The notes beneath the pieces are model-generated. The model did not search any database. It saw only the letters and a program-made list of their open reading frames with translations, and was not told where the DNA came from. Shown in pieces: positions 13,901-64,000 of a stretch of 64,000 nt of DNA. The stretch spans positions 4,836,001 to 4,900,000 of the forward strand of contig NC_089430.1 of the NCBI RefSeq assembly GCF_026210795.1, read 5' to 3'. The DNA is from Rhizophagus irregularis. Lineage: Eukaryota > Glomeromycota > Glomeromycetes > Glomerales > Glomeraceae. The translations under genes were made by a program, and so were the position numbers. Positions within the stretch are counted from its first letter, which is position 1, and each line of letters opens with the position of its first letter.

Positions 13901-14383
13901 AGGTATACTGATCTACAAATACAAATATATTAGTAAAAATTAAAAACAATAAAATTATATTGTATAATATATTTATTATACCTTATTTATGAATCCTGAT
14001 ATAAAATTATTTGAAGTACTTAAACTTTTCAGAACAATAAATGCATTATGACCTCCTCTTTCCCAATTTTTATTTTTATCATCCCAATAACATATATTTC
14101 CATCAATCCAATTTGCTCTATACATTTCACCAAGTTCATCTTTTGCAATATACTTAATATCATATAATCTATCATAAGGTATCCATTCCAATGCTTCTTC
14201 TATATTATCATGAGCTAATAACTGAGTATTTTGAATAAATTTATCAATATTATCATTACTACTAGTCCAATTTTTGAAATTTCGCTGAAAATGTATTGCG
14301 TAACATGTATTATTACATTTTTTACATCTCTCGACATGTGATAACGTAGTTATCTTCTTAATACTTTTAATAAAAGAATCCAT
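7953..14383 (-). CDS. Giant protein-kinase-like gene with 11 tandem N-lobe exons and one C-lobe
   Basis: Predicted minus-strand exons: 14383-13982, 13912-13505, 13435-13013, 12945-12526, 12450-12001, 11931-11503, 11437-11009, 10937-10521, 10453-10040, 9968-9549, 9476-9048, 8961-8082, 8005-7953. The first eleven are multiples of 3 and all joins are in frame, giving ~1,857 aa. Each of the eleven ends in a kinase N-lobe (LEWIPYDRLY, loop, KVYRANWIDG, LKSL) preceded by a Cys block (CEKCN, WTSGN, DIDKFIQ). Only the last N-lobe has a proper loop (KGGFGKVYRA) and VALK lysine. The C-lobe exon has LIHQDLHIGNIL (Arg of HRD changed to Gln), TDMG in place of DFG, APE and DIYSFGIIMYE. Exon 1 starts MDSFIKSIKK. 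Introns are ~60-90 nt with GTATAA/GTATGA donors. The last short exon is conserved in the two paralogues. Kinase activity is uncertain; a scaffold or sensor role is equally possible. Confidence 0.75.
9048..13912 (-). repeat. Tandem array of ten duplicated exon-intron units (~490 bp each)
   Basis: Exons 2-11 of the kinase gene repeat with a period of 430-510 bp, introns included. Each exon starts with the kinase beta4-beta5 segment (GITQDPETKNYMMVL) and then switches to the Cys block and N-lobe. Two subtypes recur: NKFGKV/VILKSL (units 2, 4, 8, 10) and DEF-KVYRA/FVNLKSL (units 3, 5, 6, 7, 9). Unit 5 is longer through a ~10-residue insert. Both exon ends are phase 0, so any number of units keeps the frame. 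Confidence 0.85.
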
Positions 14384-21314: not shown

Positions 21315-24202
21315 ATGGAATTGAAGTTAATTAATCATGATATTTCTGCTATTAAAAATAATATAAAATGTTTTAAGAGTAGTGATTTATTTATTCATCT
21401 ATCAACACATAGTAAATATGAAGCAATATTTAGAAGAAAATTGGAATGGATTCCTTATAATAAATTTTGTGATGTTAAATATATTGTAGTAGACATGTTT
21501 AAAAAAATGTATAGAGCAAAGTGGATTAATAAAAGAAACAGTGTGTTTCTAAAAAGTTTAGATGATCCAAATAACGTTACACCGGAGTTCGTAACAAGTG
21601 TATGTTTGAATTTATTATTTAATGAAATTTTTTCAAACAATCTTATTTATATTAACGTAATTTATTATTATCATAGATTACAGTACTACATGAAATTTAT
21701 GGAATAACTCAAGTCCCAAAAACAAAAACTTTTATGTTAGTTTTGAATGAAATGTGTGAAAAATGTAATATTATATGTAGTGCGATGCATTATCAACAAA
21801 ATTTTGAAAATTGGACTAGCGGTAATAATGATATTGACAAATATATTCAAAATACGCAGCTATTAGCACATGTTGGTCATAAAAATTCATTGGAATGGAT
21901 ACCTTATGATAGATTCTATGATTTTAAATATGTTGCAGAAGGCAAGTTTGGCAAGACGTATAAAGCAAATTGGACTGATGGAAATATAAGATATTGGTAT
22001 AGTAATAATTGGATAAGAGAAAATCCAAATATGCTTGTATTTCTGAAAAGCTTGAAAAATTTAAAAGATATTACATTGGAACTTAATGAGGTATAATATG
22101 AATTTGTATTATAATATATAATTGAGAACTCAATTTCACTAAATACTAATGTATTGTTTTTGTAGATTACGGTACCTCATAAATTCTATGGAATAACTCA
22201 AGATCCAAAAACAAATACTTATATGGCAGTTTTGAGTGAAACATGCGAAAATTGTGATAGTATATGTAATGCAATACATTTTCAACGAAATTTTGAAAAT
22301 TGGACTAGCGGTAATAAAAATATTGATAAACTTATTCAAGACACCCAGCTATCAGTACATAGTAAATATGCATCAGTAATTAAAAAAATATTAGAATGGG
22401 TACCTTATAATAGACTTTATAATATTAAATATATCTCAGAAAGCAATTATAAAGCAACTTGGATTGATGGATGTATAGATAAATGGGATCATCATAATAA
22501 TAAAACTTGGAAAAGAAAAGAACAGAATTTGATTGTATTTCTGAAAAGTTTAGATAATCCAAATAATATTACGTCAGAATACATAAATGAGGTATATTAA
22601 ATTTATTATTTAATGTATGAAATTTTTTTTTTAATTTTGATTTTTACTATGTTTATATTTGTAGATTTCAAAACATTATGAAGTTTACGGAATAACTCAA
22701 GATCCAGAAACAAAGAATTATATGATGATTTATAATGAAGTATGTGGAAAATGTAAATATATATGTAGTGCAATACATTTTCAACGAAATTTTAAAAATT
22801 GGACTAGTGGTAACATAAATGTTGATAAATTTATTCAAGATATTCAGTTGTCAGTTCATAAAGACACTAATATAAGAAACGTATTAGAATGGATACCTTA
22901 TGATAAATTTAACAATATTAAATACATTGGGAAAGGTGGATTTGCTAATGTGTATAGTGCAGAGTGGGCAATAAATGGTCAACATAATAAATTGGTCGCT
23001 CTAAAAAGTTTAAATAATTCAAAAAATATTACATTAGAATTTATGAATGAGGTATGATTATTTTATTTTATTTATTAAGAATTTCGAAATTTTGCTTTTT
23101 TGTAATATTTATTATATTTATTAATATTTCTTTTATATATATATATAGATTGCTTTACATAACAAAATAGGAAATTCTTTTTCTATTATTGATTTTCATG
23201 GTATAACTCAAGATCCAAAAACAAAAAATTATATGATGGTTTTGGAATATGCAAAGGAAGGAAGTTTACGAAATTATTTAGATAAAAATTATAATGAATT
23301 AAGTTGGGATGATAAATTACTTCATTTATATTATATTTCATCTGGACTTGTATCTATTCATAAAAATGGTTTAGTTCATCGAGATTTTCATATAAGCAAC
23401 ATATTGGTATCCAACTACACAAAAATAACTGATATGGGATTATGTAAACCTGTAAATTATGATGCATCAGAAAATACAAAAAAATGTATATATGGTGTTT
23501 TGCCTTATATTGCTCCTGAGATTTTACAAGGTCAAAGTTATACCAAAGCTGCGGATATTTATAGTTTTGGTATTATTATGTATGAAGTAATTTCTGGGTT
23601 ACCACCATATCATGATGTAAGTCATGATAAAAATTTAGCGATAAAAATTTGTCAAGGGCTTAGACCAAAGTTTAACATTAAGGTACCACAATTAATCGTG
23701 CATTTAATTAAAAAATGCTTAGAAGCAAATCCATTAAATCGACCAACAGCAGATGAAATTGAAAAAATTTTATGTAGTTGGCGTGATAATCGTGTAGTAG
23801 AATTACAAAAACAAATTAAAGAAGCAGAAGAAATGAATAATAAATTACTAGCTGGTGGTATACATTCAACCAATTTAAGAGTATCATATAGGACACATTC
23901 TGAAGCTATTTATACAAGTAGATTACTTAATTTTGATAATCTTCCCAAACCAAAAAATTCTGATTATTATTATGAAAAGAAGGATACTAGTATGAATAGC
24001 ATTGAATCTTCAGGTACTGTGCGTTTAATAAAAAAAAAAAAATATTTAAAACAATTATAATAAATGCTAACTAAAACTTTATTTATTTTAATTAGCGCCA
24101 TTGTCTTTACAAATTGATGTTTCAAAATTGAATATTAACTACAATAATAATCCCGCCAAATCGAAAAATTCTGGTGCTTATTATAAACAAAGGATATTAT
24201 AA
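21315..24202 (+). CDS. Protein-kinase-like gene with four N-lobe exons and one C-lobe
   Basis: Predicted exons 21315-21599, 21677-22090, 22166-22591, 22665-23051, 23149-24013, 24096-24202; the total is divisible by 3 (~827 aa). Exon 1 lacks the Cys block and has a poor loop. Exons 2-4 have the Cys block (CEKCN, CENCD, CGKCK), WTSGN and an N-lobe. Exon 3 has lost the glycine loop (ISESNYKATW). Exon 4, next to the C-lobe, has the best loop (GKGGFANVYSAEW) and VALK. The C-lobe shows LVHRDFHISNIL (HRD and Asn present), TDMG for DFG, an APE segment, DIYSFG and a helical tail (LQKQIKEAEEMN). The final exon (LSLQIDVSKLNIN) is shared with both paralogues. It lies head-to-head with the giant kinase gene 6.9 kb away. 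HRD is intact, so activity is more likely than in the giant gene. Confidence 0.78.
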
Positions 24203-26303: not shown

Positions 26304-29300
26304 ATGTTAAAAGAAACGAAAGAAACCGACCCTAAAGAATCAAATTATTATGTCGATTGGTTAGACAAATCGATTGCAAATGAATACTTCAATTATTATG
26401 AATTTTCGGAATTTAAAAATTTAGAACTTATAGGAAGTGGTTCATATGGAAGTGTCATTCGTGCTAATTGGAAAAATATTGAAAATTTTTTCGCTTTAAA
26501 AACTTTTAAAAATTATGACAATATAATGTTAAAAGAACTTGTTAATGAGGTAATTAATCTCGGCTATCTTCATAAATTTTACAAATTGAAATTAAAATAT
26601 GATTTCTTTTCCAGATAAAATTACAAAAAAGAGTTGATTTTCACGAGAATATTATACGGTTTTATGGCATCACGAAAGTGGAAGCTGGTAAGATTCAAGT
26701 GCTAGCATGTGTTACATTAACGTTTTGGTTTAACACACTCTTTTTTATCTAGAAAAATATTCGTTAGTCTTAGAATACGCCGACAATGGTACACTAAAAA
26801 CTTATTTAAATAATCATTTTAATGGACTTAATTGGATTGATAAATATCAGTTGGCATTTCAACTAGCTAATGCAGTAGAATGTTTACATGATTGTAATAT
26901 TATACATCGTGATCTGGTAATAACAAATTACTAACTTATAATTTGCTATTTTAATTATAATCGTATCGTACTAAGGTTTTCATTTATAATAATAGCATGC
27001 AGATAATATACTTGTACATGGGAAAAAGATAAAGTTAACAGACTTTGGTTTATCAAAAAAAATTTCTGAAGCATCAAGCAAAACATCAAAAATATTTGGT
27101 GTAATACCTTTTATCGATTCAAAAAAATTATATGATCAAGGTTACAAATTAAACAAGAAATCTGATGTATATAGCGTCGGAGTTTTGATGTGGCAAATTT
27201 CAAGTGGCCGTCAACCTTTTTCTGATTATAATTATGATGCAATTTTATCCTTGTCCATAGCAAATGGCAAGCGAGAAGAAATTATTGACGGTACTCCTAA
27301 AGAATATTGTGACTTATTTGCAGGTAATGAATATGATTATAAATATTTTTAATTCATTAATTCATTTATTAATGTGATTTATTTTAACCAGAATGTTGGA
27401 AAGATGATCCAGATGAACGTCCAAATATACAAAATGTCGTTTCTATTCTTTATGAAATAATATTTCCCAAACAAGAAGGTATAACTATTACTGATAATGT
27501 TAATAAAGAAAAAGAAAATAACCAACTGAAAAAATTTGAACCAATTTCTAAATCAATCGAAACCATGGAATTAAATAATGAATTGATATCATATAATGGA
27601 TTAAATATAAGTTGTGAAAATAATTTATCAAGTTCATCAATTCAAACAAATATATCAAAAATTTCATATGGGTCAACATTTGATAAGACTAATAATATAA
27701 TTGTTCAAAAGTTAATTAAGGTTATAAATAGAAAACATGATAAGGAAAGTATTAATTTTCGAGATTTTCAACAATTTATCAATCAACAAGTATTTGAATT
27801 AAATCTAAGTTCAAATAATCTTATTAAATGGCTAACTAAACAAGTAAATCCACAATATAATTATTTACTTGGACTACTTTATTATTATAACATCTGTACA
27901 GAAGAAAATAGTACAAAGCATTGGAATTATTCTTGAAAGCATCTAAAGACAATTATTTGACTGCACAAGTTTATCTTGGAAAATGTTATAATGATGGATA
28001 TGGAATTAAATGTAATAAAAATTTGGCATTTGATTGGTATCGAAAATCTGCGGAGAATGACAGTATAATTGGACAATTTTATTTGGGAAATTGTTATGAA
28101 TTTGGCATTGGAACTGCAAAAGATTTTATAAAATCAGTACATTGGTATAAAAAAGCGGCAAAAAGAGGAAATACAAGTGCAAAACTAAATCTTGCAAACT
28201 GTTATAGATTAGGAAAAGGTGTTGAAAAAGATGAAATTAAAGCGTTCATGTATTATAAAATTTTAGCCAAACAAGAAATTTCAGATGCTCAATGTCAACT
28301 GGGAGATTGTTATTATAATGGGATTGGAACGAAAATAGATGAAATACAAGCTAAATGTTGGTATGAAAAGGCAACAAAAAATGGAAACATTGTTGCAAAA
28401 GATAATCTTTTAAAGTACTATGATAAAAGACAAAAGTTAAAAATAAGTAATATTAAGGAAATTAAATTTCAAAAAAGATTAAGTTTTAAAGGTTTCAAAT
28501 ACTTTATGACTAAATTTACAAAAATTAATCAAGAAAATATATTTAGCATAGTTCAAATAGTGGCAGAAAATAAAAATAAAGGGTTGCCATTTGATTTAAT
28601 TAATCACTATAAAAAAGATAAAGGTGTAAGAAAAGATGGAAGAAAAGCTTTTGAATTCCATAGACTTTTAGCTGAACAAGGATATATAAATGCAAAATTT
28701 CAACTTGGATATTGTTATGATGAAGGAATTGGAATTGATATTAGTAAAGTAAAAGCATTTGAATTATATAAAGTAGCAGCAGAAAAAGGAAATAATGAAG
28801 CACAATATAATTTGAGTATTTTATATGAATTAGGAGAAGGAGTTGATAAAAATGAGGAAAAAGCATTTGAAATAATTAAAAAATTAGCAGAAAAAGGAGA
28901 TCCGGATGCAAATTATAAACTTGCTTACTACTATAATAAAGGAATCGGAACTGAAATTAATAAATCAAAAGCATATGAATCATATAATATAGCAGCTGAA
29001 ACAGGAAACAATGAAGCACGATTTAATTTAGCCATATTATATCAATTTGGAGTTAGTGATGATAAGAAGAAAGCATTTAAATTAATGAAAGATTTAGCGG
29101 AAAAAGATGATGTAAATGCTCAATTCAAACTTGGATATTATTATGATGAAGGAATTGGAACTAAAATTAATAAATCAAAGGCATTTGAATTATATAATAT
29201 AGCAGCTGAAAAGGGGAGCAATGAAGCACGATTTAATTTATTTAATTTAGCCATATTATATCAGCTTGGAGATGGAGTTAATGAAGATAAGAAGAAAGCA

Positions 29301-30542
29301 TTTGAATTAATGAAAGGTTTAGCAAAAAAAGATGATGTAAATGCTCAATTCAAACTTGGATATTATTATAATGAAGGAATTGGTACTGAAATTAATAAAT
29401 CAAAAGCGTTTGAATTATATAGTATAGCAGCTGAAAAAGGCATTAAGGCACAATATAATTTGGCCATTTTATATCAATATGGAGAAGGTATTAATAAAGA
29501 TGAAAAGAAAGCGTTTGAATTAATAGAAAACCTAGCCGCCGAAAATGATTTAGATGCTCAATTACAGCTTGGATATTATTATTATGAAGGAATTGGAACT
29601 GAAATTAATAAATCAAAAGCATTTGAATTGTCTAAAGTAGCAGCAGAAAAAGGAAATACTGATGCACAATTTATTTTAGGTACATTATATCAAATTGGAG
29701 AAGGAGTTGCTAAAAATGAGAAAAAAGCATTTGAATTAATAAAAGATTTAGCTGAAACAGATTATTCAGATGCTCAATTTCAACTTGGATATTATTATAA
29801 CGAAGGAATTGGGATCAAAAGAGATCTTAAAAATTCCTTTTACTGGCACCAAAAAGCAGCAGAAAATGGCAATAAAACCGCACAGTATGATATAGGTGAA
29901 AGCTATGAATTAGGAATTGGGACTGATAAAGATTTAATTAAAGCATTTTATTTTTATGCAAAATCGGCTGAAAATGGAGATATTTGTGCAAAATTTCAAC
30001 TTGGATACTGCTATATAAATGGTATTGGAACGGAAATTAATAAAGTAAAAGGATTTGAATTATATAATGAGGCGGCTGGCACTAATATCCAAATTAACCT
30101 TATTGAAAATGATGAAGAAATAGTAAATGATTTAGACAAAGTTAATTATTAGTATCACAAAGCTGCAGAAAATGACAGTAAACTTGCATTATATAAATTA
30201 GGTGAATTTTATGAAGCGGGCATAGGTGTTTGTAAAAATGAAACACGGGCTTTTGAATTCTATAAGGAATCAGCTGATCAAGGGTATATAGATGCTCAAT
30301 ACAAAGTTGGGTATATTTATAATTATGGAACCCAAATTGATATTGATAAAGAAAAAGCATTTAATCACATTAAGATTGCTGCAAAAGGAGGAAATGTTGA
30401 TGCACAATACAGCCTCGCATCTTTATATGAACAAGGAGTAGGAACTGAAAAAAATACCGAGAATGCCATTTATTGGTACAAGAAAGCCGCAGAAAATGGA
30501 TGCCAGGAAGCTGAAAAAGGTTTAAACTTATTATTAAAATAA
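26304..30542 (+). pseudogene. Kinase-Sel1 repeat fusion gene with one frameshift and one nonsense codon
   Basis: Exons 26304-26549, 26615-26687, 26753-26916, 26996-27323, then 27392 onwards. The start is the ATG of MLKETKE. Kinase domain: loop [17 protein letters not shown] lysine, HRDL split by an intron from [13 protein letters not shown], and FGVIPFID in place of APE, then [11 protein letters not shown]. All catalytic motifs are present. After a Ser/Asn-rich linker come ~18 Sel1 repeats of ~36 aa ([25 protein letters not shown] type), which form helical solenoids that bind partners. The frame breaks near 27917, where one A seems missing in ACAAAGCA, and a TAG at 30150-30152 sits where repeats usually have Trp. 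Sel1 coding continues in the same frame for ~130 codons to 30542. The breaks could be real decay or sequencing errors. Confidence 0.7.
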
Positions 30543-43470: not shown

Positions 43471-45191
43471 TAAGGATGGTGCCGCAAATATGTAATTGCG
43501 GAATAATTGCGATTTACGGTATTGCGGAACATTGCAGATTTTTAAATCTAAAAATCCGCAAATCTGCAAATCCGCAATTATCCGCAATCCCACAAATATT
43601 CCGCAAAAAAAACTTTCTTTTTTTTAATAAAATATAATTACTACTAAAAAAAAAAAATATTTCTATTTATTATTAATAATAAAAGAAATTATTTTACATA
43701 AAAAAAAATTAAAAAAAACGCTGGAACCTATAGTTCTGGCGTTTTAATTAAAAAAAATTTAAAAGAAACCGCCGGAACCTATAGTTCCAGCGTTTTTACA
43801 TAAAAAAAAATTAAAAGAAACCGCCAGAACTTATAGTTCCAGCGTTTTAATTAAAAAAAATTTAAAGAAAACGCCAGAACCTATAGTTCTGGCGTTTTTA
43901 TTAAAAAAAATTTAAAGAAAACGCTGGAACTCATAGTTCCGGCGTTTTTACATAATAAAATTAAAAGAAAACGCCGGAACCTTAGTTCCGGCGTTTTTAT
44001 TAAAAAAATTAAAAAGAAAACGCCAGAACCTTAGTTCCGGCGTTTTTATTAAAAAAAAAATTAAAAGAAAACGCCGGAACCTTAGTTCTGGCGTTTTTAT
44101 TAAAAAAAAATTAAAAGAAAATGCCGGAACCTTAGTTCTGGCATTTTTATTAAAAAAAAACTAAAAGAAAACGCCGGAACCTTAGTTCCGGCGTTTTTAT
44201 ATAAAAAATCAAAAGAAAACGCTGGAACCTATAGTTCCGGCATTTTTACATAAAAAAATTCAAAAGAAAACGCCAGAACCTATAGTTCCGGCGTTTTTAC
44301 ATAAAAAAATTCAAAAGAAAATGCCGGAACCTATAGTTCCGGCGTTTTTACATAAAAAAATTTAAAGAAAACGCCGGAACCTATAGTTCGGCGTTTTTAC
44401 ATAAAAAAATTCAAAGAAAATGCCAGAACCTATAGTTCCGGCGTTTTTACATAAAAAAATTAAAGAAAACGCCAGAACCCATAGTTCTGGCGTTTTTATA
44501 TAAATAAATTAAAAGAAAACGCCGGAACCTTAGTTCCGGCGTTTTTACATAAAAAAATCAAAAGAAAACGCCGGAACCTATAGTTCCGGCGTTTTTATAT
44601 AAAATAATTAAAGAAAACGCCGGAACCTTAGTTCCGGCATTTTTATTAAAAAAAAATTTAAAGAAAACGCCGGAACCTTAGTTCCAGCGTTTTTACATAA
44701 AAAAATCAAAAGAAAACGCCAGAACCTATAGTTCCAACGTTTTTACATAAAAAAAATCAAAAGAAAACGCCGGAACCTATAGTTCCGGCGTTTTTTACAT
44801 AAAAAAATTCAAAAGAAAACGCCGGAACCTATAGTTCCGGCGTTTTTACATAAAAAAAATCAAAAGAAAACGCCGGAACCCATAGTTCCGGCGTTTTATA
44901 TAAATAAATTAAAAGAAAATGCCAGAACCTATAGTTCCGGCATTTTTATATAAAATAATTAAAAGAAAACGCCGGAACCCATAGTTCTGGCGTTTTTATT
45001 AAAAAAAATTAAAAAATATGCCGGAAGCAATAGTTCCAGCATTTTTGTATAAAAAACCTATTAGTTCTGGTGTTTTTTGTATGTAAGAAAATACCAAAAC
45101 TGAATTGCGGAATTACGGGCTACTAACCGCAATTCAACTTCAAAATCCGCAATATTGCGGAATTTGAAAATCATTTGCGGACCCATCCTTA
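43471..45191. mobile_element. Non-autonomous hAT-type element packed with hairpins, TSD CAAATAAG
   Basis: TSD CAAATAAG at 43463-43470 and 45192-45199. TIRs TAAGGATGGTGCCGCAAAT (43471-43489) and ATTTGCGGACCCATCCTTA (45173-45191) match at 17 of 19. Subterminal TTGCGGA/TCCGCAA motifs repeat at both ends (43495-43610, 45110-45180). The interior from 43708 is a tandem hairpin array. No ORF. Confidence 0.85.
43708..45070. repeat. Tandem array of ~27 short hairpins, ~50-bp period
   Basis: Each unit has a 22-24 bp palindrome of the type CGCCGGAACC-TATA-GGTTCCGGCG shortened at the loop (typically GCCGGAACC then TATAGTTCCGGC), separated by ~27 bp of TTTTTACATAAAAAAATT-like spacer. Stems vary between G-C and G-T-type changes that keep pairing (CCGGAA/TTCTGG, GCTGGAA/TTCCAGC), with several compensatory or wobble-compatible pairs. 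27 full copies and one partial copy near 45055 were counted by eye. Confidence 0.85.
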
Positions 45192-45805: not shown

Positions 45806-46054
45806 TAACACTAGTCGAAATAAGGCAAATTGGAAATAAGGCAAATCGTCCTTATTTTGGCTAAATTTCGGCTAATAATTAACGATCGTCTGTATATCAG
45901 GTGACATTCGGCATAGCCGATTTCCGATTTCACTAGTCGAAAAAGGCCGGCCTATATTCAATTAAAAATTCGACCATGATCTACGATTAGACATTGGTCG
46001 AATAGTCTAATTAAACGTCATGCATTACGCGTATCAAAGTTTAAAAAAGGATCT

Positions 46055-46230
46055 TTTTTAAACTTTCCCCTTTCATCCCTTCCTTTCACGCACTTCACTT
46101 CATCCTTACTTTCCCTGTCCTTTCGTCCTTCCCCTCCCTTCCCCTATTGTCCTTTCCTTTCCCTTTCGTCCTTTCCTTGCTTCCCCTTTCTCTCTCCCCC
46201 TTTTCTCACACCTTTCTTCCGCCTTTTTTT
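46055..46230 (+). other. Polypyrimidine (CT-rich) tract
   Basis: About 170 nt with almost only C and T on the plus strand (CCTTTCC, CCCTCCC runs). In fungi such tracts often precede transcription starts, and they can form triplex DNA. It lies directly upstream of the first GTAAGT donor-like site of the element (46243), so it could be a promoter-leader for a transcript across the array. That is inference. Confidence 0.5.
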
Positions 46231-46239
46231 CTTGGAAGT

Positions 46240-46545
46240 AATGTAAGTTTCGTTTCAAAACTTACATATTTTTTTTTAATTTTTTTTTTTAATTTAAGAA
46301 ACGAATTTCTTTTCATTGTTTTTTTTTGTAGGACGCCAGCTTTAACACGAAACTAGACTTTAAGGTAAAAAACGGGAAAGTGAAGTTTTGTTAATTTAAG
46401 AAACAAACTAACGTTTCTTTTCATTATTTTTTTTTTGTAGGACGCATAGGAGGACGCCGGCTTTAACACGAAACTGGACTTTAAGGTAAAAAATAGGGAA
46501 AAGGGAAAGGAGAAGGGGATTTAGAACCAAGATTCTTAAGAATCT
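46240..46545 (+). repeat. Two exon-like units ahead of the main array
   Basis: After GTAAGT at 46243, TTTTTTGTAG at about 46323-46332 precedes a 33-nt GACGCCAGC-starting segment that ends in TTTAAG before GTAAAA. The next unit (acceptor at 46431-46440, with CTAAC branch-like motif at 46408) carries a 45-nt related segment. Both exon-like segments are multiples of three and share AACACGAAACT and GGACTTTAAG. Confidence 0.5.
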
Positions 46546-46556
46546 TGGTTTTTATT

Positions 46557-49255
46557 TTTTTTAATATTTCGGAACGGTTACTAACCGTTCCTTTCTTTTT
46601 TATAGGTTTCGGGCAGGCTTCCTGGTTTTGAAGAATGGAAAAGAACCAAAATTCATAAGTAAACGAATCTTGGTTTAATTTTTTTTGTTTTTTTTTTGTA
46701 ATATTAACGAACGGTTACTAATAACCATTTTTTCTTTATTATTTTAGGATCGGGTTGGCTTCCGAATTCCGAAGAACAGAAAGAACTAAGTTTCGTAAGT
46801 ACGAGTATGAAACTTGGTTTATTTTTTATTTTTTTTTTTTCCTATTATATGAATGGTTACTAACCATTCCTTTCTTTTTCTTATAGGTTCGGCTCGCCTG
46901 CCATGAGTTTTCCGAAGAACGGAAAAAAACTAAGATTCTGTACTACAAATCTTAGTTTTTTTTTTCTTTTTTAATATTTGGAACGGTTATTACTAACCGT
47001 TCTTTTTCTTTTATTTTTTATAGGTTCGGTGTCTCAGGAGAGGCTTCCGAGTTCTGAAGAACGAAAAAAAAACCAAGATTCGTAAGTATATACGAATCAT
47101 GGTTTTAATTTTGTTTTTTTTTTAATTTTATTAATGAACAGTTACTAATAACCGTTCTTTCTTTTTTTAGGTTCACGAGTTCTGAAGAATAGAAAAGAAC
47201 TAAGATTCGTAAGTATATACGAATCTTGGTTTTAATTTTTTTGTTTTGTTTAATTTTATTAATGAACGGTTACTAATAACCGTTCTTTTCTTTTTTTAGA
47301 TTCGGATGGGCTTCCGATCTTTGGAAAAAGTGGAACCAAGATTTATAAGTAAGTACAAATCTTGGTTTAATTTTTTTTTATTATTATTATTACGAACGGT
47401 TACTAATAACCGTTCTTTTCTTTTTTTTTAGGATTGGGTGGATTTCCGAATTCCAAACAACGGAAAATTAAGATTCATAAGTAACTACTAATTACGAATC
47501 TTGATTTTTTTTCTTTTTTTTAATATTATTAATGAACGGTTACTAATAACCGTTCTTTTTTTTTTCTTTTCTTTTTTTTTAGAATCGGGTGGATTTCTGA
47601 ATTCCGAAGAACAGAAAATCAAGATTCGTAAGTAACTACTAATTACGAATCTTGATTTTTTTTTCTTTTTTTTTTAATATTATTAATGAACGGTTACTAA
47701 TAACCGTTCTTTTCTTTTTTTTTTAGGATCGGGTGGATTTCCGAATTCCAAAGAATGGAAAATCAAGATTCGTAAGTAACTACTAATTACGAATCTTGAT
47801 TTTTTTTTCTTTTTTTTTAATATTATTAATGAACGGTTACTAATAACCGTTCTTTTCTTTTTAGGATCGGGTGGATTTCCGAATTCTGAAGAACGGAAAA
47901 TCAAGATTCGTAAGTAACTACTAATTACGAATCTTGATTTTTTTTTCTTTTTTTTTTAATATTATGAATGAACGGTTACTAATAACCATTCTTTTCTTTT
48001 TTTTTAGGATCGGGTGGATTTTTGAATTCCGAAGTACAGAAAAGAACCAAGATTTGTAAGTATATACGAATCTTGGTTTTGTTTTTGTTTTTTTTTATTA
48101 TTTGGAACGGTTTACTAACCGTTCCTTTCTTTTATTTTTTAGGTTTCGGGTTGACTTCTGAAGATCAAAAGAAAAGGAACCAAGATTCGTAAGTAAGTAC
48201 GAATCTTGGTTTATTTTTTATTTTTATTTTTTATTATTTTGGAGCGGGTACTAACTGTTCCTTTCTTTTATTTTATAGGTTCGGGTGGGCTTCCAAGTTC
48301 CGGAGAATGGAAAAAGATCAAGATTTGTAGTAGAGCTCCGAATGGGTCAGGTCAGGTCAGGTTAATTGATAAACCTGACCTGAAATTTTTTTTCAGGTCA
48401 GATCAGGTCAGGTTATATCAGGTTGTCTGTTTGACCTGACCTGACCTGAAACCTGAAAAATTTCAGGACTATTTTTATTAAGTATTGAAAAAAAACGGTA
48501 CAAAACGTTTTTTTTTTAATATAACATTATGAAAAAAATGTTTTCGCAACGTTTTTTTCTCGAAATATTGCGATTCAACATTTTTATATTAAAATCATAT
48601 AAAAAAGTGAATCCCAATACTGCAATTCACGTTTTTTATATAGAATTAATATAAAAAAAGTGAGTTGCGGTATTGCGATTCACTTTTTTATATAGATTCT
48701 ATATAAAAAAAGAGAGTTGCGGTATTGCGATTCACTTTTTTATATTGATTTCATATAATAAAAGTGAGTTGCGGTATTGCGATTCACTTTTTTATATAGA
48801 TTCTATATAAAAAAGTGAATCGCAATATCGCAACTCTCTTTTATTATATGAAATCAATATAAAAAAGTGAATCGCAATACCGCAACTCACTTTTTTTATA
48901 TAGAATCTATATAAAAAAGTGAATCGCAATACTGCAACTCACTTTTATTATAAAGTAGAATCAATAGGTTCAGGTCAACAGGTCAATCAGGTCAGGTCAA
49001 TCTTCATACCTGACCTGAATTTTTTTTAAAAATCTCATACCTGACCTGAATTTCAGGTCAGGTCAGGTCAGGTTACCTGAATTTGGCTGACCTGTTCAGA
49101 GCTCTAATTTGTAGGTATATACGAATCTTGGTTAAATTTTTTTTATTAATATTAATGAATGGTTACTAATAACCGTTCTTTTCTTTTTTTATAGGTTTGG
49201 GTGGATTTCCGACGAATGGATGAACCAAAACCAAGATTCGTAAGTACGAATCATG
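46557..49255 (+). repeat. Tandem array of ~14 units, each resembling a mini exon plus intron
   Basis: Units of ~125-150 bp. Each has a polypyrimidine stretch ending TTTAG or TATAG, a 45-58 nt segment of the GATCGGGTGGATTTCCGAAT type, then ATTC-GTAAGT. Acceptors end at about 46605, 46747, 46886, 47023, 47170, 47299, 47432, 47582, 47726, 47854, 48007, 48142, 48279 and 49194. The donor sits in the loop of a palindrome (CAAGATTCG / CGAATCTTG) and a TACTAAT or TACTAAC branch-like motif sits in the loop of a second one (GAACGGTTA / TAACCGTTC). Seven units from 47432 on are nearly identical. A hAT-type element interrupts unit 13. Confidence 0.8.
48331..49106. mobile_element. Non-autonomous hAT-type element H1 (copy A), TSD ATTTGTAG
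   Basis: TSD ATTTGTAG at 48323-48330 and 49107-49114. TIRs begin TAGAGCTCCGAATGGGTCAG on the left and TAGAGCTCTGAACAGGTCAG when the right end is inverted. Subterminal arrays of TCAGG/CCTGA repeats fill ~90 bp at each end. The middle (48598-48960) alternates palindromic blocks of GTGAATCGCAATACCGCAAC and its complement with AT spacers. It landed in the CACTA tandem array exactly at a donor-like site. A second, much-interrupted copy is at 52360. Confidence 0.85.
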
Positions 49256-50699
49256 GTTTATTTTATTATTATTATTTTATTATAATTTTGAATTAGCAAT
49301 ATTTATTTGTAATTTAGATAGATGCTAATAATAATAATATAATTATAAAGTTTTTAAGCATTTAATTAATAAATACATTTAATAAATTTGATAATAAAAA
49401 TTGAAATAAATTCAGAAAAAAATAGTCCGATTTTTGTCCGATTTAAGTTCTGAAGTACATCTGATCACAGGTCAAAAAGTGAAAAATCAGGCACCAATTG
49501 GTGACTGATTGATGCCTGATTTTTCACTTTTCGACCTGTGGATTGACTGTCCAAATTTAGTATGATTTAGTTCTGATTTATGTCCGATTTAAGTTCCGAA
49601 GTACATCTGATTGGCAGTCAATCGAATAACAATCGGAATATATTTTTTTTGTAAAAATCAGACATATTTCAGCTGTAATTCGACCTAAAATAAGATATCT
49701 GATTTTTAGCCGATTTGCCTTATTTCGACTAGTGTAATAGACATTTGTTTTTTTTTTAAATCAGAATACTAGATATTATTGTTTTATTATTTATTTAATA
49801 TATAAAAGTTATATGAACATTGTGTTTTATAAATATTATACAAAAATTTTGTAAAGAAAATTTACAAAAATTTATAATTGATATAATTAATTAATAATTT
49901 AATTTATTATTCTAATTGTTATAAAATAATACATCACATGCTATTTATGAAAGTTTACTTTAATATAATATATATATATTACATTAAGAATATATAAATA
50001 ATTATTTAATTATCCAATTTATTATATACTATTTTTGTAGATAATGTTATATAAATATACTATTTATTTACTATTCGGCATTTAAAAAATGGTTTATTGA
50101 GAAAATATTGACTTTTTGGTTTTTTTATTTTTAAAATTGCCAAAAAATTGGATCTTTCAACTATTAGTATATTAAATATATGTGGAAGTTACATATATAA
50201 ATATACCTAGTATTTAGTAGTAAATTAAATATATGTGAAAGTTACATAAACATATTGGTATTTAATATTTAAAATTATTTTATTAATTAAAATATTTTTT
50301 TTATTATTAGATGCAAATTATTTTAAAAATTGTCAAAAAATTAGATTCTTTAATTATTAGTACATTACATATGCAATTTAGCAATTGAAAAATTATTTTA
50401 TTAATAGGCCATTGATTTTATTTTAGTTTTATTCTTTTTTTTAATTAGATATAATTTATTTTAGAAAATTAAATGATTTGATTCTTTTAATTATTAGTAT
50501 ATTATTATATCTATAGAAGTTGAATAAACATATCTATTTAATGGAATTTAATATTTAAATTATTTTATTAATATAAAACTTAATTTTTGTTTTGTTTTTA
50601 TTTACAGTATTTATTATTTATTTATTTTTTATTAGATACAAATTATTTTAAATATTGTTAGAAATTGGATCAACAAAATCTATCTAATTAAAAAATTTT

Positions 50700-51399: not shown

Positions 51400-52900
51400 T
51401 TGAAATCCATGCCATATAATTAAAACCCGTGACATACCTCCGTCTGATCTATTTATCCGTGTACATTCCAATCAACTAATATAATTTCATTTTACCTTCA
51501 AACTGAAAAAAATTTTTTCTTCCTTTCTTCTTTCGGTTTAGTTTTTTTTTCAAACCGAAAATTTGATTTTTCTCATTCTTTTCCCATTTAGGTTTAATTT
51601 TTTTCCCAAACTGAAAATTATTTTTTTTTTCGAATTATTGCAAAATTTTTTTCGATACTTATTTTTTTCAGATTCCTTTTTTTTCAGAAATTTCCCTTTT
51701 TTTTGAACCAATTTCTTTCTTTATCCTTTTTCTTTCCCCCAAATTTATTTTTAATTTTTTTTTTCTTTTAATTTTTTTTTAAAAAATCACGCTGGATAAA
51801 TAGTTTGATTTTCAAATTCATAAAAATCAAAAAAAAAATTGATATTTTTACAATATTTTATAATTAATTAATTGAAGAAATTGTTGATTTAATAATAGAC
51901 TATTATAACCAAATCCATATCCAAAATTCTCTAAATAATCACCAGATTTTTGATTAAAAATTTTAATTCAAATGGTTTAGTTAAATTAATAATTTATCGA
52001 ATAAAATGAGTATCAAAATAATAATAAATGAAATGAACAGATTTCTAATACATTTAAATGTTCAAATATTTTTCCTAAGTTGGTTATAAGTTTAAGATTG
52101 ACGTAATAAAAATAAGAAATAATTAATTAATATACATATTAATATTTGTAGTATTTTCATAATATTTAAGTTTTTTCAATAAAAATTAATTTTTTAGAAG
52201 TATTCTTGATAATTATTTTTTCACAATTCCTAATTAATCCGAATTTCACTCTACGCTCAAACATCAAATCATTAATACATTATTCTAAAAAAAATGTATA
52301 AGAAATAGCAACACGAAAATAAAAATAATTTATTATTTATATCATTCTAATATTATAAATAGAGCTCCGAATGGGTCAGGTTAGGTCAGGTTTAAGGTTG
52401 CTTGCCGAAACCTGTTTGGCCTAATGCCGAAAGGTGAAACCTCTTATATAGTGCCGAAACGCCGAAACGCCAAAACGCCGAAACCTGTCAAAATTGCGAA
52501 ACTGCCGAAACATGCCGAAACCTCTATAATAGGTTTCTCTGTAGTTTCGGCATAGTTGATCATAAGATTTGCATATAGTTACGCCAAGTTACACCAATTA
52601 ATAATATAATTTAGATGATCAAATAATCTACAAATAAAAGATTAAACTTCAATATTTTACTGTCGTCTTAGTTCTTTTAAGCTTTATCTAGTGTTAGAAT
52701 TTTCATTTCTAACTCCCATATTAATATTATGATATTACACGTTTTTACAGTTTTTTTTTAAGGGGCTTATATTCATTAAAGGAAAATGCGTAACATGCAT
52801 TTAATAAACCCAATTCCGTCATCTCCTTTAACACTGAACTAAAGTTTCTTTTACTTTCTTCCATTTTCTTAATAATAATATTAATAATAAACTGTTTCAA

Positions 52901-55201
52901 ATGACTGATCACATAGAAGATTCACCCATTAAAATGAAAAATAGAGGAGGTCGGCCACCTAATAGCATTTGGGAAGATATTAATAAAGGAGAAGCTGTTG
53001 GTTCTGGCAAATTTGCCGCCTCCTGCAAGTACTGTAAGAATACATGGTCACGCGGTGAAGTTTCAAAGCTCGAAGAGCATCTTTCAAACCATTGTCCAGA
53101 TGCGCCAGCAGCAGTTGTTAGAAGGTATATGACTAAAGTAATAGAACGGCAAGATAAGTCCAAGTCATCCAAAAAAGAAAAATACTCTGAAGGTCAAAGT
53201 AACATGGATGATTACCATGATTCAACAGAGCTTAACGAACAAAGATGTACACGAATTAATCGTGCATTAGTTAAATTTTTTATTGCGTGCGGAATTGCGT
53301 TTAGAGTAGTGGAACATCCCTTTTTCATCAATTTTATAAAAGAGCTTAATGCCGGGTACAATACACCAACAAGGGAAGTATTAGTAAATCAACTACTTGA
53401 ACGTGAATTAGCTCAAGTGAACTTCAAAGTTAATTCTGAGCTTGAAAAGGAAACGAATTTAACGTTAGGTTTGTTAAATTAAATAGGCTATCATACGTCA
53501 TTTTTATTTAATCTTACTTACTATATAATATTAATTTATAATTTAGCCTTTGATGGTTGGACGTCTGGTACACATCGTTCAATTTGGAACTTCATTGTAA
53601 TGACTCCGTCGCGTAAAGAATATCTTTATCAACTTTCTGATTTGTCTGAAAATTCGCACACTGCAGAATATCTAGTTACAGTAATTGAAAAGGTTATAGA
53701 AGGTATTGGAGAAGATCGAATATGTGCTGTAGTTTCCGATAATGCGGCCAATGTTCGTAATGCACGAAAAATTATACATGAGAATCATCCAAAGATTGAG
53801 AATGTGCGATGCGTTGCACATTCTATCAATTTAATTGCATGCGACATCGTCAAGGAGAAGTTTGGGGAACGTTTATTAAAACGTGTTAATATTTTGACAA
53901 CCTTTTTTAGAAGTTCTCATCAGGCTAATGCAAAACTTGCTCAAATAATTAAAGAAAAAGGAATTAGTGGAGGAGGATTAAAATTATATTGCAAGACACG
54001 CTGGACTACTGCTAGTGAATCCGTAAATTCAGTAATAAATTTGGAATCAGCACTAGAAGAAATGGCCAGCGATCACGATAAAGTGCTAACAAATGATAAA
54101 ATAAAACCGATTATTCAATCGAGAAATTTTTTTTCAAATTTACGAGTTCTTGGGTTTGTTCTGGATCCTCTAAGAAAAGCGGTACTTTCATTAGAATCGA
54201 GAAGAGCTACACTTGCAGATTGTTTCCTGAGCTTGGCAAGACTTGCAGCTACATTAAAAAAGTTACCCAAATCATTAAATCCTGCATTCCGAAGTCATTG
54301 TATCAAAGTAATAAATGAAAGATTTGATGAATTCGATGATGATAAGTATATTACTTGTTTTTTTATGGATCCCAGATTTAGAAACGCGCCACTTAAAAAA
54401 TGCGCCCTCATGAGAATTATCAAATGTGCAGCTTCAATCGGGAAAAATTTAGGTTTCGACCGTTACGAAGCTGAAACTTTATGTGATCAAATACAGAAAT
54501 ATATTAATGAGCAAGAGCCATTTGACCTAGATATCGGTTTTGCTAAAGATAATCCTGTGAATTGGTGGAAATATATTAATACCGAACCAGAACCAGATGT
54601 CCTGCCAAGAATTGCAAGTTATCTATTTGCAATATGTCCTAACTCAGCAACTTGCGAACGTGGATTTTCGACTTTAGGATGGCTATTTCATAAACGTCGC
54701 TTAAATCTTAATGTGGATAAACTAGAATCCATGTGCAAATTAATTTTGTATTGGAAATCCAATTCAAAAACTGAACTTGGATTTTATGGAATTGATCAAA
54801 AAAAGAATACTCGTCTTAGTGATGATGAGATCAATATACGTATTGCAGAAGCTTTTGCAGAAGATGACGATGAGGAATATAATGAGGAGCAAGCTTCTAC
54901 TCAGAGATTAACTACAAGCGGCGAAACAATACCCGAAGACAATTGCCGTGTAGTAATCGAAAGTCTATGGATTGATCAATTTGTTAATTTATCGCATGAT
55001 TCAATTACTAGTGAAATCGGCGATATTCCAAGAGATATATTGGATGATTCAGATGAAAATAATGCGGAAGATGATGAAGTTGATGATAGTGGTAATAACA
55101 AGAGACCCGGAGAAGGTGACTATGATTATGATATAGATGATGTATTAGGTATGGATGACGGTGATAATAATGACGATAATTATGATGATAATGAGGAATA
55201 A
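52901..55201 (+). CDS. hAT-family transposase (BED zinc finger, DUF659-like core)
   Basis: Two exons, 52901-53468 and 53547-55201 (phase 1 join, donor GGTTTG, acceptor TTTAG), giving ~740 aa without stops. The N-terminus has a BED-type zinc finger (CKYC, then EEHLSNHC). The core begins AFDGWTSGTHRSIW, with the first catalytic Asp region; VVSDNAANVRNA and VRCVAHSINLI follow, matching the second Asp and the C-x2-H motif of hAT transposases. The dimerisation region has ATCERGFSTLGWL and KLESMCKLI. A ~130-aa acidic tail ends in DDNYDDNEE, longer than usual. The enzyme would cut and join DNA at the element's TIRs in the nucleus. The two-exon frame is intact, so it is potentially functional. Confidence 0.85.
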
Positions 55202-57239: not shown

Positions 57240-57580
57240 TTGCGATTCAACATTTTTATATTAAAATCATATAAAAAGTGAATCCCAATACTGCAATTCA
57301 CTTTTTTTATATAGAATTAATATAAAAAAAGTGAGTTGCGGTATTGCAATTCACTTTTTTTATATAGAATTAATATAAAAAGTGAATCGCAATATCGCAA
57401 CTCACTTTTATTATATAAAATCAATATAAAAAAGTAAATCGCAATACTGCAACTCACTTTTTTTATATAGAATCAATATAAAAAAGTAAATCGCAATACT
57501 GCAACTCACTTTTATTATATAAAATCAATATAAAAAAGTGAATCGCAATACTGCAACTCACTTTTATTATATAGTAGAAT
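57240..57580. repeat. Alternating palindromic blocks inside host element H1 copy B
   Basis: Blocks of GTGAATCGCAATACTGCAAC and complement repeat about seven times with TTTTTATATAGAATCAATA-like spacers, matching 48598-48960 in copy A. Single strands could fold into long imperfect hairpins. Confidence 0.7.
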
Positions 57581-59728: not shown

Positions 59729-62424
59729 TAGGGTATGGAAGAGTTCAGGTCCAGGACTTTAGGACTGAGTCTTTGAACTCAGTCTTGGTAAGACCTAGTC
59801 CTAATTTTGGGACTTAATTTGGACGGTCCCAAATCGGTTTTTATAATAAACAATATAAATAAATTTAGAGATTAATTTCGCAGATCTTTACTGCAATTTA
59901 ATAAGTCATGTGAAATATGTAAATCATGACACGTCTCTTACCGTCAAAATTTTCGCGTTTTGCATTTTACTTTACTTCACTCTTCCCATTGTTTTTTCCT
60001 TCCCATTAAATTTTTCAGTAAAAATGTCTTATTCGAATTATGATTTTGAAGATTTTAACAATTTTGATGAATTTGAACCTTTTGAACAAGATGCACCTCC
60101 TATAGAAGATGAAGAAAATGATGATAATGATGACAGTGAAGAAGAAACCTCACCTCAATCTCGCCGAACTTCACCAACATGGAAGTATTTTAACGAACAA
60201 ACAACTCAACATCCAGGATATCCAGTTTGTTGCAAATGTCAATGTGTTTTTGGAAAAAAAACTGGAATTTCAACTTTAAAACGACACTTAGAATCTATAC
60301 ATAAAATAAAGATAGGAAATGTCAAAAATACAGGAAAGAATCAAAGTATTTTGAATTTTAGGCAAACTGATCCTTGGCCTGAAAAAGAAAAAAATGAACG
60401 AGATATTGCAGTAGTAGAGTGGGTAATTGGAGATGCACAACCCTTCCGTTCTGTTGAAAATTTGCGATTTAAAATTATGATCAATAAATTTGATTCTCGA
60501 TATCAAATTCCAGATGAAAAAACAGTAAAAACTTTGGTAGTTGATTATTTTAAAGAAAAACGTAAAAATATACAAGAAGATCTAAATGCAATTCCGGGCA
60601 AATTATCTTTAACAGCCGATATGTGGACTTCAACATGTAATAATGATGCATTTCTTGGCCTGACAATTCATTATGTTGACAATAATTGGAACCTAAAAAA
60701 CTTTTTATTAGATATTATTTCTTTTACTACCCGTCATACTGGAAATAATATAGCAAATGCAATAAAATCAGTTTTAACAGAATTTAATCTACTTGAAAAA
60801 ACTTTGGCTTTAACTACTGATAATGAATCGGCGATGGTAGTTTGTGGAAGAATAATTGCAGAAGAACTTACAAAAGAACTTAATGATCAGTCTTTTCGAC
60901 ATTATAGGTGCTCTGCACATATTTTAAATTTGGCCGCGCAGCAAGGAATTAAAATTATTGATGATGAGGTTGTTAAAATTCGTGAGTTAATGAAAAAAAT
61001 TAAACACTCAACTCTAAGGTGTGATAGATTACGAGAATTGTGTTCAATAGAAAATTTAACATATTACAAACCACAATTAGATGTTGAGACCAGGTGGAAT
61101 AGCACCTATTACATGATTGTAAAATTCCAAAAAATGTTGCGACCTATTGAAATGTTAGCTGCAACAGATCAAGACATTAAAAAATTCGTACCGGACGCGC
61201 AAGGATGGATAAAAATAAATGTAAGTGTTAGCTATTCTTCATTAATAACGATATTAACATTAATTAATAACATAACTAATCCAAAAAATAAACTACATTA
61301 TGACTAATTTACAATATAAATAGGATACACTTACGTTACTGGAACCATTAGAAAAAGCAACAGTATTGCTTTCAGCTTCCTCCTATCCCACCATTTCTGA
61401 TGTAAGGTTTTTGTTTCTTGGAATCCAACAACATCTAAACGATTATATTGGAAAAGAAGAATTTAGTCAAAGTGAAGTAGCATCATCAATACTTCAAAAA
61501 ATTGATCAGTATTGGGAAGTAGTGGATTCATCTACCTTAGCGTCTACGGTACTAGATCCACGCACAAAACTTACTTTGTTTTCTGCTGGAGAAGAATCAA
61601 CAAATGCAATTAATGCAGTAAAAAGGCGTTTTTCTGAATATCATACACCAATGTCTCAACCAGCTGTAATTAATCATGATAATGGTGAAATAGCAAGCAC
61701 TCGTGATTACTTTCATCAATTAAAGAGGAGGCGATTAAATAATAGTACCGCATTAAATATTACAAGACCATCAACTGGAATTTATGAGGAGATTGACCGG
61801 TATCTTGCTTTGCCATGTGATGATAATGTTGCGCCATTGCTATGGTGGCAGGTTCATTTTCGAGAGTTTCCAGCATTAGGTGCAATGGCACGAGACTATT
61901 TATCCATTCAGGCTACTAGTGTTGCGTGTGAGCAAGCATTTTCTGTGGCGAGTAATACTATAACTCGCACAAGAAATAGATTGCAACCAGATACGTCTCG
62001 TGCATTATTGTGTTCAAAAAGTTGGCTTGAAAAAGGAATAGGAAAGAAAAGAAATTAAGAGTAATGGGTAACGTTTAATTGTTTATAGTAATATAATCAC
62101 TGTATATACTTTTATTAATCAAGTTCAGAAAAATTTTTTTCAACTTACAAAATAAAAAATGTGGCTTTGGTGGGAATTATTACAACGCCATTACTTAAAT
62201 GGTTAGCATTTTGATTATCGACGAATTAATAAATTTTTTTTGTAGCTCGTAATAAATAAATTATTTAAGTATTTTTTGTTTAAAATTAACCAATCAATTC
62301 AATCGGGACTAAGTCCTAACTTAAGTCCTAGTTTCGGTCCTTAAACTGGGTCCGGTCTGTCCATGTGCCAGGACCTGTAAGTCTTGGGACTTTAACCGGA
62401 CTGTAACGGACTTTCCATTCCCTA
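59729..62424 (+). mobile_element. hAT element nested in another hAT, TSD ACTTCAAC
   Basis: TSD ACTTCAAC at 59721-59728 and 62425-62432. TIRs TAGGGTATGGAA (59729-59740) and TTCCATTCCCTA (62413-62424), one mismatch. Subterminal AGGACT/AGTCC motifs repeat at both ends (59745-59830, 62300-62410). The single gene inside is intact (60024-62058). An identical TSD and intact gene suggest recent transposition. Confidence 0.9.
60024..62058 (+). CDS. hAT-family transposase, intact, two exons
   Basis: Exons 60024-61220 and 61324-62058 joined in phase 0 (donor GTAAGT, acceptor AATAG), ~643 aa, no stops. The start is the ATG of MSYSNYDFEDF; the frame is open further upstream but only from a GTG. Acidic N-terminus (~65 aa), then a BED zinc finger (SPTWKYFN, CCKCQCVF, LKRHLESIH). 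Catalytic core: LSLTADMWTSTCNNDAF with the first Asp, LALTTDNESAMVV with the second, CSAHILNLA, DVETRWNSTYYMI. C-terminal dimerisation region: LLWWQVHFREFPALG, IQATSVACEQAFSVASN and TRTRNRLQPD. Of the three transposases here it is the least damaged together with the one at 52901. It would act on the TIRs at 59729 and 62413. Confidence 0.88.
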
Positions 62425-64000
62425 ACTTCAACTAAATATAAATTTGTCATGTTCTCTCAAACCTGAAGAAAAAGCTGATGGTAATAGATTAAAAAAACTT
62501 GTGTTAAAGGATAATGAATGGGAATTATTGGATGAATTATGTAATATATTAGCACCATTTGAAAAAGCTACACGAGATTTTTCTGGAAGTACCTATATAA
62601 CATTAAGTCAAATGTTCCCCATCATTACAAATCTTACAAATTCCTTAAAACCAGTTGATAATTTACATGAGGAATATGAAGAACCTGATGATAATACCAT
62701 TATATCTGATACAGAAGAGAATTTAACTAACCAGTCAACTGGAATAGATTATAATAATATTTCAGAAGTTATAAAAAATGTAAAAAAATATATATATATA
62801 GGCTTTAAAACACTACTGGTCAATGCCAGATGAGTTTGGCATTATGGCAGCACTTTTAGACCCACGATATAAAGATCTTAATTTTATATCTGATGAAAAT
62901 ATAAAAGTAAAAATTCATTCAAGTTTACAGATACAATATGATCAGTTGAAAAGAGAAATGCAACAACAAATTAGTACTCCACCATCACCCACAATTACAC
63001 CAATTTCAACAATTTCAGCTGATACTAGTAGAAGTTCAACTCCCAGTACAAAATCTTTACATGAGTATAGAGAGATGCGTGAAAAATCAATAAGAAAAGT
63101 ATTTCAAACAACAGAAAAATCTACTGCATCATCAACAATAGCTGATGAAATTACTACTTATTTTCTCTTGCCAGTTGTTAGAGAAAATAAAAATCCATTA
63201 AATTGGTGGAAGACTAAAAAAGAAAATTTTCCAATTCTTTCTATTATAGCACAAAAATACTTAGGAATTCCTGCTACTTCTGTAGCTTCTGAGCGACTTT
63301 TTTCTGATGCAGGGAATTACATTACGGCAAAAAGAAGTTTATTGGATCCTAATTTAGTAGGAAAAATGGTATTTTTAAAACGCAACATGCAAACTATGGA
63401 TCATATTAATGTATTTCCACCAGATTTAGAAGTGGAAAATAATGATTTTGTGGAGGATGAGGATGTATTAGAATAATTGATATTAAATTTATTTTTGTTA
63501 GTGTCTTATTTTTATTATGTAAATGTTTTTAAATAAAGTGAATTTTACTTTTATTAAATAAAATGATAAATCTTTTAGTAAGTTATATTTTTTTACTCTT
63601 TTATTGAATAATTCTATTCTAACAGTATAAGATTTATTGTATTATATAAAATAAATTCTAAATCATGATAAAATAATTTTATTAGACAAATAAATCTTTT
63701 TTTATTAATAAATCAATGATACAAATAGAATATTTTACAAATGAAATGAAAATTAAAAGGATAAAATTAAAATCAAAAAAAAATTTTTTTTTATCCGGAT
63801 TCTGGGTCAACCTGGATAATTTTTAACCGGTTTCTTATCCGGGTAAAAACCGCAATTATCTGGATATCCGAAAAAAAAATTATCCGGATATATCTGGTTG
63901 AATCCGGTTACGGATCCAAACACTATTCATACCTGACCTGAATTTTTTTTAAAAATCTCATACCTGACCTGAATTTCAGGTCAGGTCAGGTCAGGTTACC

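Follow-up and report, generated by a model that had tools for sequence, protein, structure and literature searches.

A non-autonomous CACTA-type transposon of Rhizophagus irregularis carrying a tandem array of predicted introns and mini-exons framed by hairpins

The window is a 64,000-nucleotide stretch of Rhizophagus irregularis DNA (contig NC_089430.1; C2:4836001-4900000), and the genome searched with it comprised 146.7 Mb in 32 contigs. Positions 45809-49734 of the window (3926 bp) were occupied by a non-autonomous CACTA element, whose features are listed in Table 1. The two termini (TIR1) were alike in 22 of 22 bases and TAA flanked the element on both sides, which bore out the identification as a CACTA element made in the first-pass annotation. 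The motif CCGATTT occurred two and four times near the two ends and 0 times mid-element; the middle of L081, a large sibling with TIR1 ends, also held two copies. The short palindrome and the CT-rich leader upstream of the array are presumed to represent a putative promoter and the first exon, and the 3' part of the element, downstream of the array, was AT-rich. The donor hairpin of unit 16 was interrupted by a nested insert of 776 bp, which had been overlooked in the earlier reading of this DNA. The insert is probably hAT-like, its superfamily being judged from the 8-bp duplication alone.

Other repeats and frames were found around the element. At 43703-45056, 0.75 kb before the element, a 50-bp unit organised around the palindrome GCCGGAACCT(AT)AGTTCCGGC was repeated about 27 times, and two arrays with a common 52-bp palindromic unit (GTGAATCGCAATACTGCAACTCAC) were located at 48560-48952, within the nested insert, and at 57256-57573. 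Pieces of hAT-type transposase (DUF659, Dimer_Tnp_hAT, zf-BED) were present near the element at 52838-55201 and 59859-63476. The window also contained a 494-bp tandem repeat of about 10.7 copies (9044-14327), kinase-like frames (23149-24060), and a 746-aa frame with 13 Sel1 stretches (27912-30152); kinase-like frames and frames with Sel1 stretches are typical of this R. irregularis genome. Rfam gave 0 matches at the gathering score anywhere in the window.

Table 1. Features of the CACTA element and its predicted intron array (window positions).
Feature	Position	Strand	Basis
Target-site duplication TAA, left copy	45806..45808	.	sequence
Left terminal inverted repeat CACTAGTCGAAATAAGGCAAAT (TIR1)	45809..45830	+	genome-wide matches to pattern
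Inner second CACTA terminus CACTAGTCGAAAAAGG (TIR2)	45931..45946	+	122 bp inside TIR1
Short palindrome, then CT-rich leader	46040..46240	+	sequence; similar leader in at least 42 genomic places
First predicted intron, donor GTAAGT, branch motif degraded in the window copy	46243..46331	+	acceptor by eye
Units 1-2: predicted exons 46332-46364 and 46441-46485; donors GTAAAA	46332..46485	+	sequence, splice model
Main array, predicted introns 3-15	46486..48326	+	splice model, hairpin search
Main-array predicted mini-exons, first seven	46606-46654, 46748-46794, 46887-46939, 47024-47081, 47171-47208, 47300-47348, 47432-47476	+	
Main-array predicted mini-exons, last six	47583-47627, 47727-47771, 47865-47909, 48008-48055, 48143-48188, 48279-48326	+	
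Main-array hairpins: branch GAACGGTTACTAATAACCGTTC and kin; donor AACCAAGATTCGTAAGT...GAATCTTGGTT and kin	46486..48326	+	
Nested insert, 776 bp	48331..49106	.	termini TAGAGCTC/GAGCTCTA, 8-bp duplication ATTTGTAG
Rest of predicted intron 16 (GTAGGT 49111, branch 49164) and mini-exon 49195-49239	49107..49239	+	sequence
Last predicted intron; predicted terminal exon from 49319	49240..49318	+	analogy with L061
Right terminal inverted repeat (TIR1)	49713..49734	-	sequence
Target-site duplication TAA, right copy	49735..49737	.	sequence

The array at 46243-49318 comprised 17 predicted introns, which enclosed 16 mini-exons of 33-58 nt; all lay on a single strand. Introns 2-15 were supplied by the splice model; because its calls for the first acceptor (46298) and the 16th intron were poor, the first acceptor (46331) and introns 16-17 were placed by eye, from the sequence and from the sibling L061. 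The 17 donors read GTAAGT (11), GTAAAA (2), ATAAGT (2), and GTACTA (1), and the remaining one was interrupted, with GTAGTA before the nested insert and GTAGGT after it. In 14 of the 17 introns TACTAAC/T preceded a T-rich tract and an AG, and four further TACTAA occurred inside donor loops of the array. Intron scoring at a threshold of 12 gave nine introns in the 3.3-kb array; its minus strand had 0, and so did either strand of the remaining 59.6 kb (0 + 0). When the threshold was lowered to its loosest value, 9, the array had 15, vs one on its minus strand and 17 + 17 elsewhere in the window, so that under this one scoring scheme the contrast between array and window shrinks at loose thresholds. 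The series of predicted introns in the window is not due to chance.

Hairpins in the window were sought by self-complementarity only, and the content of the loops was scored afterwards. A donor or branch motif stood at the loop in 19 of 30 array hairpins, compared with 4 of 58 hairpins elsewhere in the window and 0 of 29 when the minus strand of the array was read. Nine of the 30 belonged to the nested insert, including one counted as "donor"; without these nine, 18 of 21 had a donor or branch motif at the loop. Donor hairpins pair the exon end with the intron start, and part of GTAAGT falls within the stem. The predicted fold of the window RNA showed two hairpins per unit, with the branch core in a 4-nt loop and z scores of -7.5 to -8.7 in three units; a non-array flank of the window also folded better than shuffles (z -5.6), and AT-rich flanks can therefore likewise out-fold shuffles. 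Among 244 array introns from 38 loci, which are mutually related, donor stems of at least 7 bp were present in 190 and branch stems of at least 6 bp in 156, vs 4 and 7, respectively, of 34 control introns, which are unverified predictions from the rest of the window at a lower threshold. The array introns had 64 distinct donor stems and 28 distinct branch stems, and the number of donor stems indicates that pairing persists despite changes of letter. The later introns of locus L055 had quite different arms, yet the same GTAAGT and CTAA core.

The first-pass annotation had described about 14-16 directional exon-intron-like units, each with every splice signal and with donor and branch motif in the loops of palindromes. 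The directional units were confirmed by the one-sided predicted introns and hairpins, and the lengths of 33-58 nt held, with the count now at 17 introns and 16 mini-exons. A full set of signals in every unit was too strong a claim, GTAAGT and TACTAAC/T being limited to 11 and 14 of the 17 introns. The palindromes were likewise present, with GTAAGT partly in the stem.

Genome-wide search for TIR1 gave 55 + 57 matches within three mismatches (reversed-pattern control, 0), and 34 pairs were assembled among the matches listed. Among these pairs, at least 12 contained a tnp2 (PF02992) match and at least 11 an array unit; no pair had both and no array element contained tnp2 among the matches listed. 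Both counts are lower bounds because the typing took in 29 of the about 150 tnp2 matches listed and 39 unit places. A tnp2 match was present in at least 10 of the 14 TIR1 pairs of 6.6-7.2 kb, and also in two longer pairs. L081, the only large sibling inspected, had a 786-aa open frame matching PF02992 (E = 1.4e-14) and no array hairpin when both strands were searched. The 3-bp duplications were exact in 14 of 18 TIR1 elements with both ends, and two of the other four had the same three bases offset by one.

The inner terminus, TIR2, had 66 + 43 matches genome-wide (control, 1). All 14 TIR2 pairs, which were 2.0-4.3 kb long and lay in C2-C13, contained at least one exact branch palindrome. Among the matches listed, a TIR2 end lay exactly 122 bp inside TIR1 in 14 of 17 array- or remnant-bearing TIR1 pairs. 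The simplest history would be that an array element with TIR2 ends once acquired TIR1 ends and then spread.

The array unit had at least 231 matches in the genome, and the donor-hairpin pattern AAGATTCGTAAGT-N0-14-GAATCTT had 728 exact matches (control, 0), with double counting of a few palindromic matches (4 pairs in the 100 listed). The first 100 of these matches, all in C1-C4, formed 27 clusters. The count of 588 for the pattern with one mismatch was inflated, the pattern being one base off its own reverse complement and both strands being counted. Loci without TIR1 had been considered as a host gene family, and this was rejected, L082 proving to be a CACTA element with TIR2 ends; at 1-1257 of that locus, the array element was inserted in another tnp2-type transposase gene in the opposite orientation. 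No host parent gene of the array was found outside transposons at the loci covered, the ends of several loci without TIR1, among them L029 and L053-L060, not being reached. L054, L057, L059, and L060 (L057 and L059 as reverse complement) were near-identical dispersed loci, and the left part of three of the four consisted of a long row of palindromes (AACGAAACGTTT..AACGTTTCG, CGGAACGTTGGCTAACGTTCCG) with no clear exons. Locus L074 had lost the leader and had a perfect duplication; transcription of the array may therefore not matter for movement.

Change among recent copies was counted in an alignment of 185 extended units from 17 loci (L045 and 16 loci that had one or both TIR1 ends), with columns touched by CpG left out. 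Changed cells numbered 0/179 in the donor GT, 9/714 in donor positions +3 to +6, 6/1250 in the branch heptamer, 3/358 in the AG, 50/4207 in the spacer, and 139/5077 in the exon body. The exon body changed faster than the spacer (p = 8e-8). The pooled splice signals (18/2501) showed no significant extra conservation relative to the spacer (p = 0.077), and the earlier expectation that splice signals would stay in place as the remaining bases drifted was thus only weakly borne out in recent copies. These copies decayed almost neutrally, as is usual for non-autonomous elements, and constraint, if any, would be visible in the deeper comparison between unit types. In the CpG columns, 341 of 2703 cells had changed, and 331 of the 341 changes were transitions, as expected if the copies were methylated; 5mC at transposons is reported for R. 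irregularis in the accessible text of PMC8647823.

The explanation favoured here, which is held to be moderately probable, is that the locus is a non-autonomous CACTA element, mobilised by tnp2, with a spliced, non-coding tandem intron array as its sole cargo. An alternative, unlikely although it deserves weighing, is that the palindromes act or arise at the level of DNA, through cruciforms, template switching that perfects hairpins, or repeat expansion, and that the splice-like letters are carried along and seldom used. Such an origin would suit the perfect arms of many different sequences, the further palindromic tandem arrays nearby in the window, the weak short-term constraint on splice letters, and the neutral-looking decay at CpG, but it fits poorly with loops whose donor and branch motifs are confined to one strand (19/30 vs 0/29), with a T-rich tract and AG that follow at appropriate spacing in 14 of 17 introns, and with donor hairpins of unrelated sequence in L055 that keep GTAAGT.

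Comparison with annotated proteins showed that the hand-joined translation of the L074 array matched 68 of 260 candidate proteins at E <= 0.01, the named matches being from R. irregularis, plus one protein of R. diaphanus. A second array query had 131 protein matches, and the 120 listed were from R. irregularis together with the same R. diaphanus protein. Gene models OCT59_016755 (13 introns) and OCT59_026297 (11 introns) mapped exactly onto L065b and L069, respectively; relative to the splice model, they had equal acceptors in 18 of 24 cases and equal donors in 9 of 24, and several of the differing junctions look as if chosen to keep the frame open. Two further annotated proteins did not map onto L066. 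Array-matching models with isoforms were RIR_jg17074, RIR_jg29739, and RIR_jg8231. According to the accessible part of PMC10234402, the assembly was annotated by BRAKER with aligned RNA-seq as input, Nanopore reads were used to refine the models, and genes carrying transposon domains were discarded. Because the annotation drew on RNA-seq and Nanopore reads, transcription of the array is likely; in the annotation as described there, junctions backed by reads are not identified. Models P0003, P0040, and P0057 were apparently fusions of array-matching sequence with an unrelated protein, as if host genes took up array exons.

It is quite improbable that the array is a genuine gene for a basic repeat protein, either the element's own or captured by the host. 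These protein matches would agree with such a gene, as would stop-free runs above the 95% level of base-shuffled exons at 21 of 29 loci, the joined exons of L074, in which the splice choice of the model left one frame open through the array but for a single stop, and the 112 of 241 lengths that are multiples of 3 in the redundant exon set. Exon lengths and indels, however, ignored the frame. The lengths of 52 non-redundant exons modulo 3 were 0, 1, and 2 in 20, 19, and 13 cases, L082 had six consecutive exons of 46 nt, each turning the frame, the number of these frame-shifting 46-nt exons varied from 1 to 3 among siblings, and the same exon measured 38, 39, 39, and 41 nt in four near-identical loci. 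Stops were not depleted beyond dinucleotide content, with 72 in the non-redundant exons vs 79.8 in dinucleotide shuffles, and the antisense was more depleted (41 vs 66.5). Exon bodies also changed faster than introns, and the matches had almost no Pfam domain (19 array-matching proteins inspected), P0040 looking like an array fused to a host protein. Protein coding was thus not favoured by exon phase, stops, shuffles, or substitution by column modulo 3, and the stop-free runs lean the opposite way. The disregard of exon lengths for the frame and the greater variation of exon bodies relative to introns make a spliced non-coding array the favoured reading.

The units had also been suggested, as the duller option, to be transposase-binding repeats like those in subterminal regions of plant CACTA elements. 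This is very unlikely: subterminal repeats are known in CACTA elements, as the accessible text of PMC4219821 indicates, and the array was present in 14 of 14 TIR2 pairs, but it occupies the middle of the element in one orientation, and L081 has the same ends and a transposase with no array hairpin. The first-pass annotation also proposed that the array serves to sponge up splicing factors or gives rise to circular RNAs; this is highly improbable, even though a single transcript would hold many identical donors and branch sites.

If the array is a spliced, non-coding cargo, the array element would be moved by the tnp2 transposase encoded in larger elements that share its ends, and the cargo would be one transcription unit consisting of the CT-rich leader and tandem spliceosomal introns and mini-exons. 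Transcription would run rightwards along the array, splicing would be at least partial, and the product would not be a conserved protein. Hairpins would form on the emerging RNA and bind each donor and branch site to its own unit among near-identical sites; judging from the modelled pairing, donor hairpins could tie donors to their own unit, or could slow or block splicing, part of GUAAGU being paired. The benefit, as a best guess, might then be that the intron-rich transcript is taken for that of a host gene. Resistance of such a transcript to small-RNA silencing is doubtful; PMC5554785, as far as its accessible part goes, deals with introns as a barrier to nuclear RNAi. It is slightly more doubtful still that the array is an evolved splicing device, with non-coding tandem introns whose donor and branch sites each sit in a hairpin, kept because a transcript rich in introns and efficiently processed would shield the element from small-RNA and methylation silencing. 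The weak conservation of splice letters, the pairing of GUAAGU, the two ATAAGT donors, the long stop-free runs, the redundant exons with lengths divisible by 3, the mapped gene models that agree with the splice model in only 9 of 24 donors and 18 of 24 acceptors, the two proteins that did not map, and L074 speak against the favoured reading of a spliced, non-coding array.

If spliced, the array would offer a natural test bed for the choice of partners by the spliceosome, with dozens of near-identical introns per transcript, and would allow testing of whether donor and branch hairpins favour or impede splicing and whether transposons are protected from silencing by introns. Transposon arrays may account for many gene models in R. 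irregularis, the two queries having matched 68 and 131 annotated or predicted proteins, and the array may supply host genes with ready-made introns and exons.

In the open-access literature, to the extent of the texts accessible, no tandem intron arrays were described in CACTA elements or in Rhizophagus; most subscription papers lay outside the search. SP7-like effectors of R. irregularis (PMC11333574, accessible part) resemble the array in being repeat-built predicted proteins of the same fungus; a link to them was rejected, no frame of the joined exons containing their signature Y[KR]Rx[AP]x[AP]. The element resembles the fungal Plavaka group of CACTA (CMC/EnSpm) transposons in its CACTA ends, 3-bp duplications, and tnp2 (PF02992) partner, the transposase having been scored with PF02992. 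Plavaka elements are prevalent in R. irregularis according to the accessible text of PMC11075540; known members differ in that intron arrays are not described for them in the sources available. Tgm-Express1, a soybean CACTA element (PMC1947982, in the part accessible), is similarly non-autonomous with cargo exons and introns used by the spliceosome, but its cargo is five unrelated fragments of host genes, whereas the array here repeats one hairpin-framed unit tens of times. Introners and fungal introner-like elements, in the available portions of PMC9860276 and PMC4457414, are repeated introns tied to DNA transposons, and the fungal ones have inverted repeats or stable structure as quoted in PMC8469720 (accessible part); they are single introns scattered over host genes, whereas the introns here stand in tandem within one transposon. 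The symmetrical stwintrons of Hypoxylaceae, as described in the same accessible part of PMC8469720, are also spreading fungal introns with strong internal symmetry. In stwintrons, however, one symmetry covers the whole intron and there are no target duplications, whereas the array described here has two short hairpins per predicted intron and is carried by a CACTA element.
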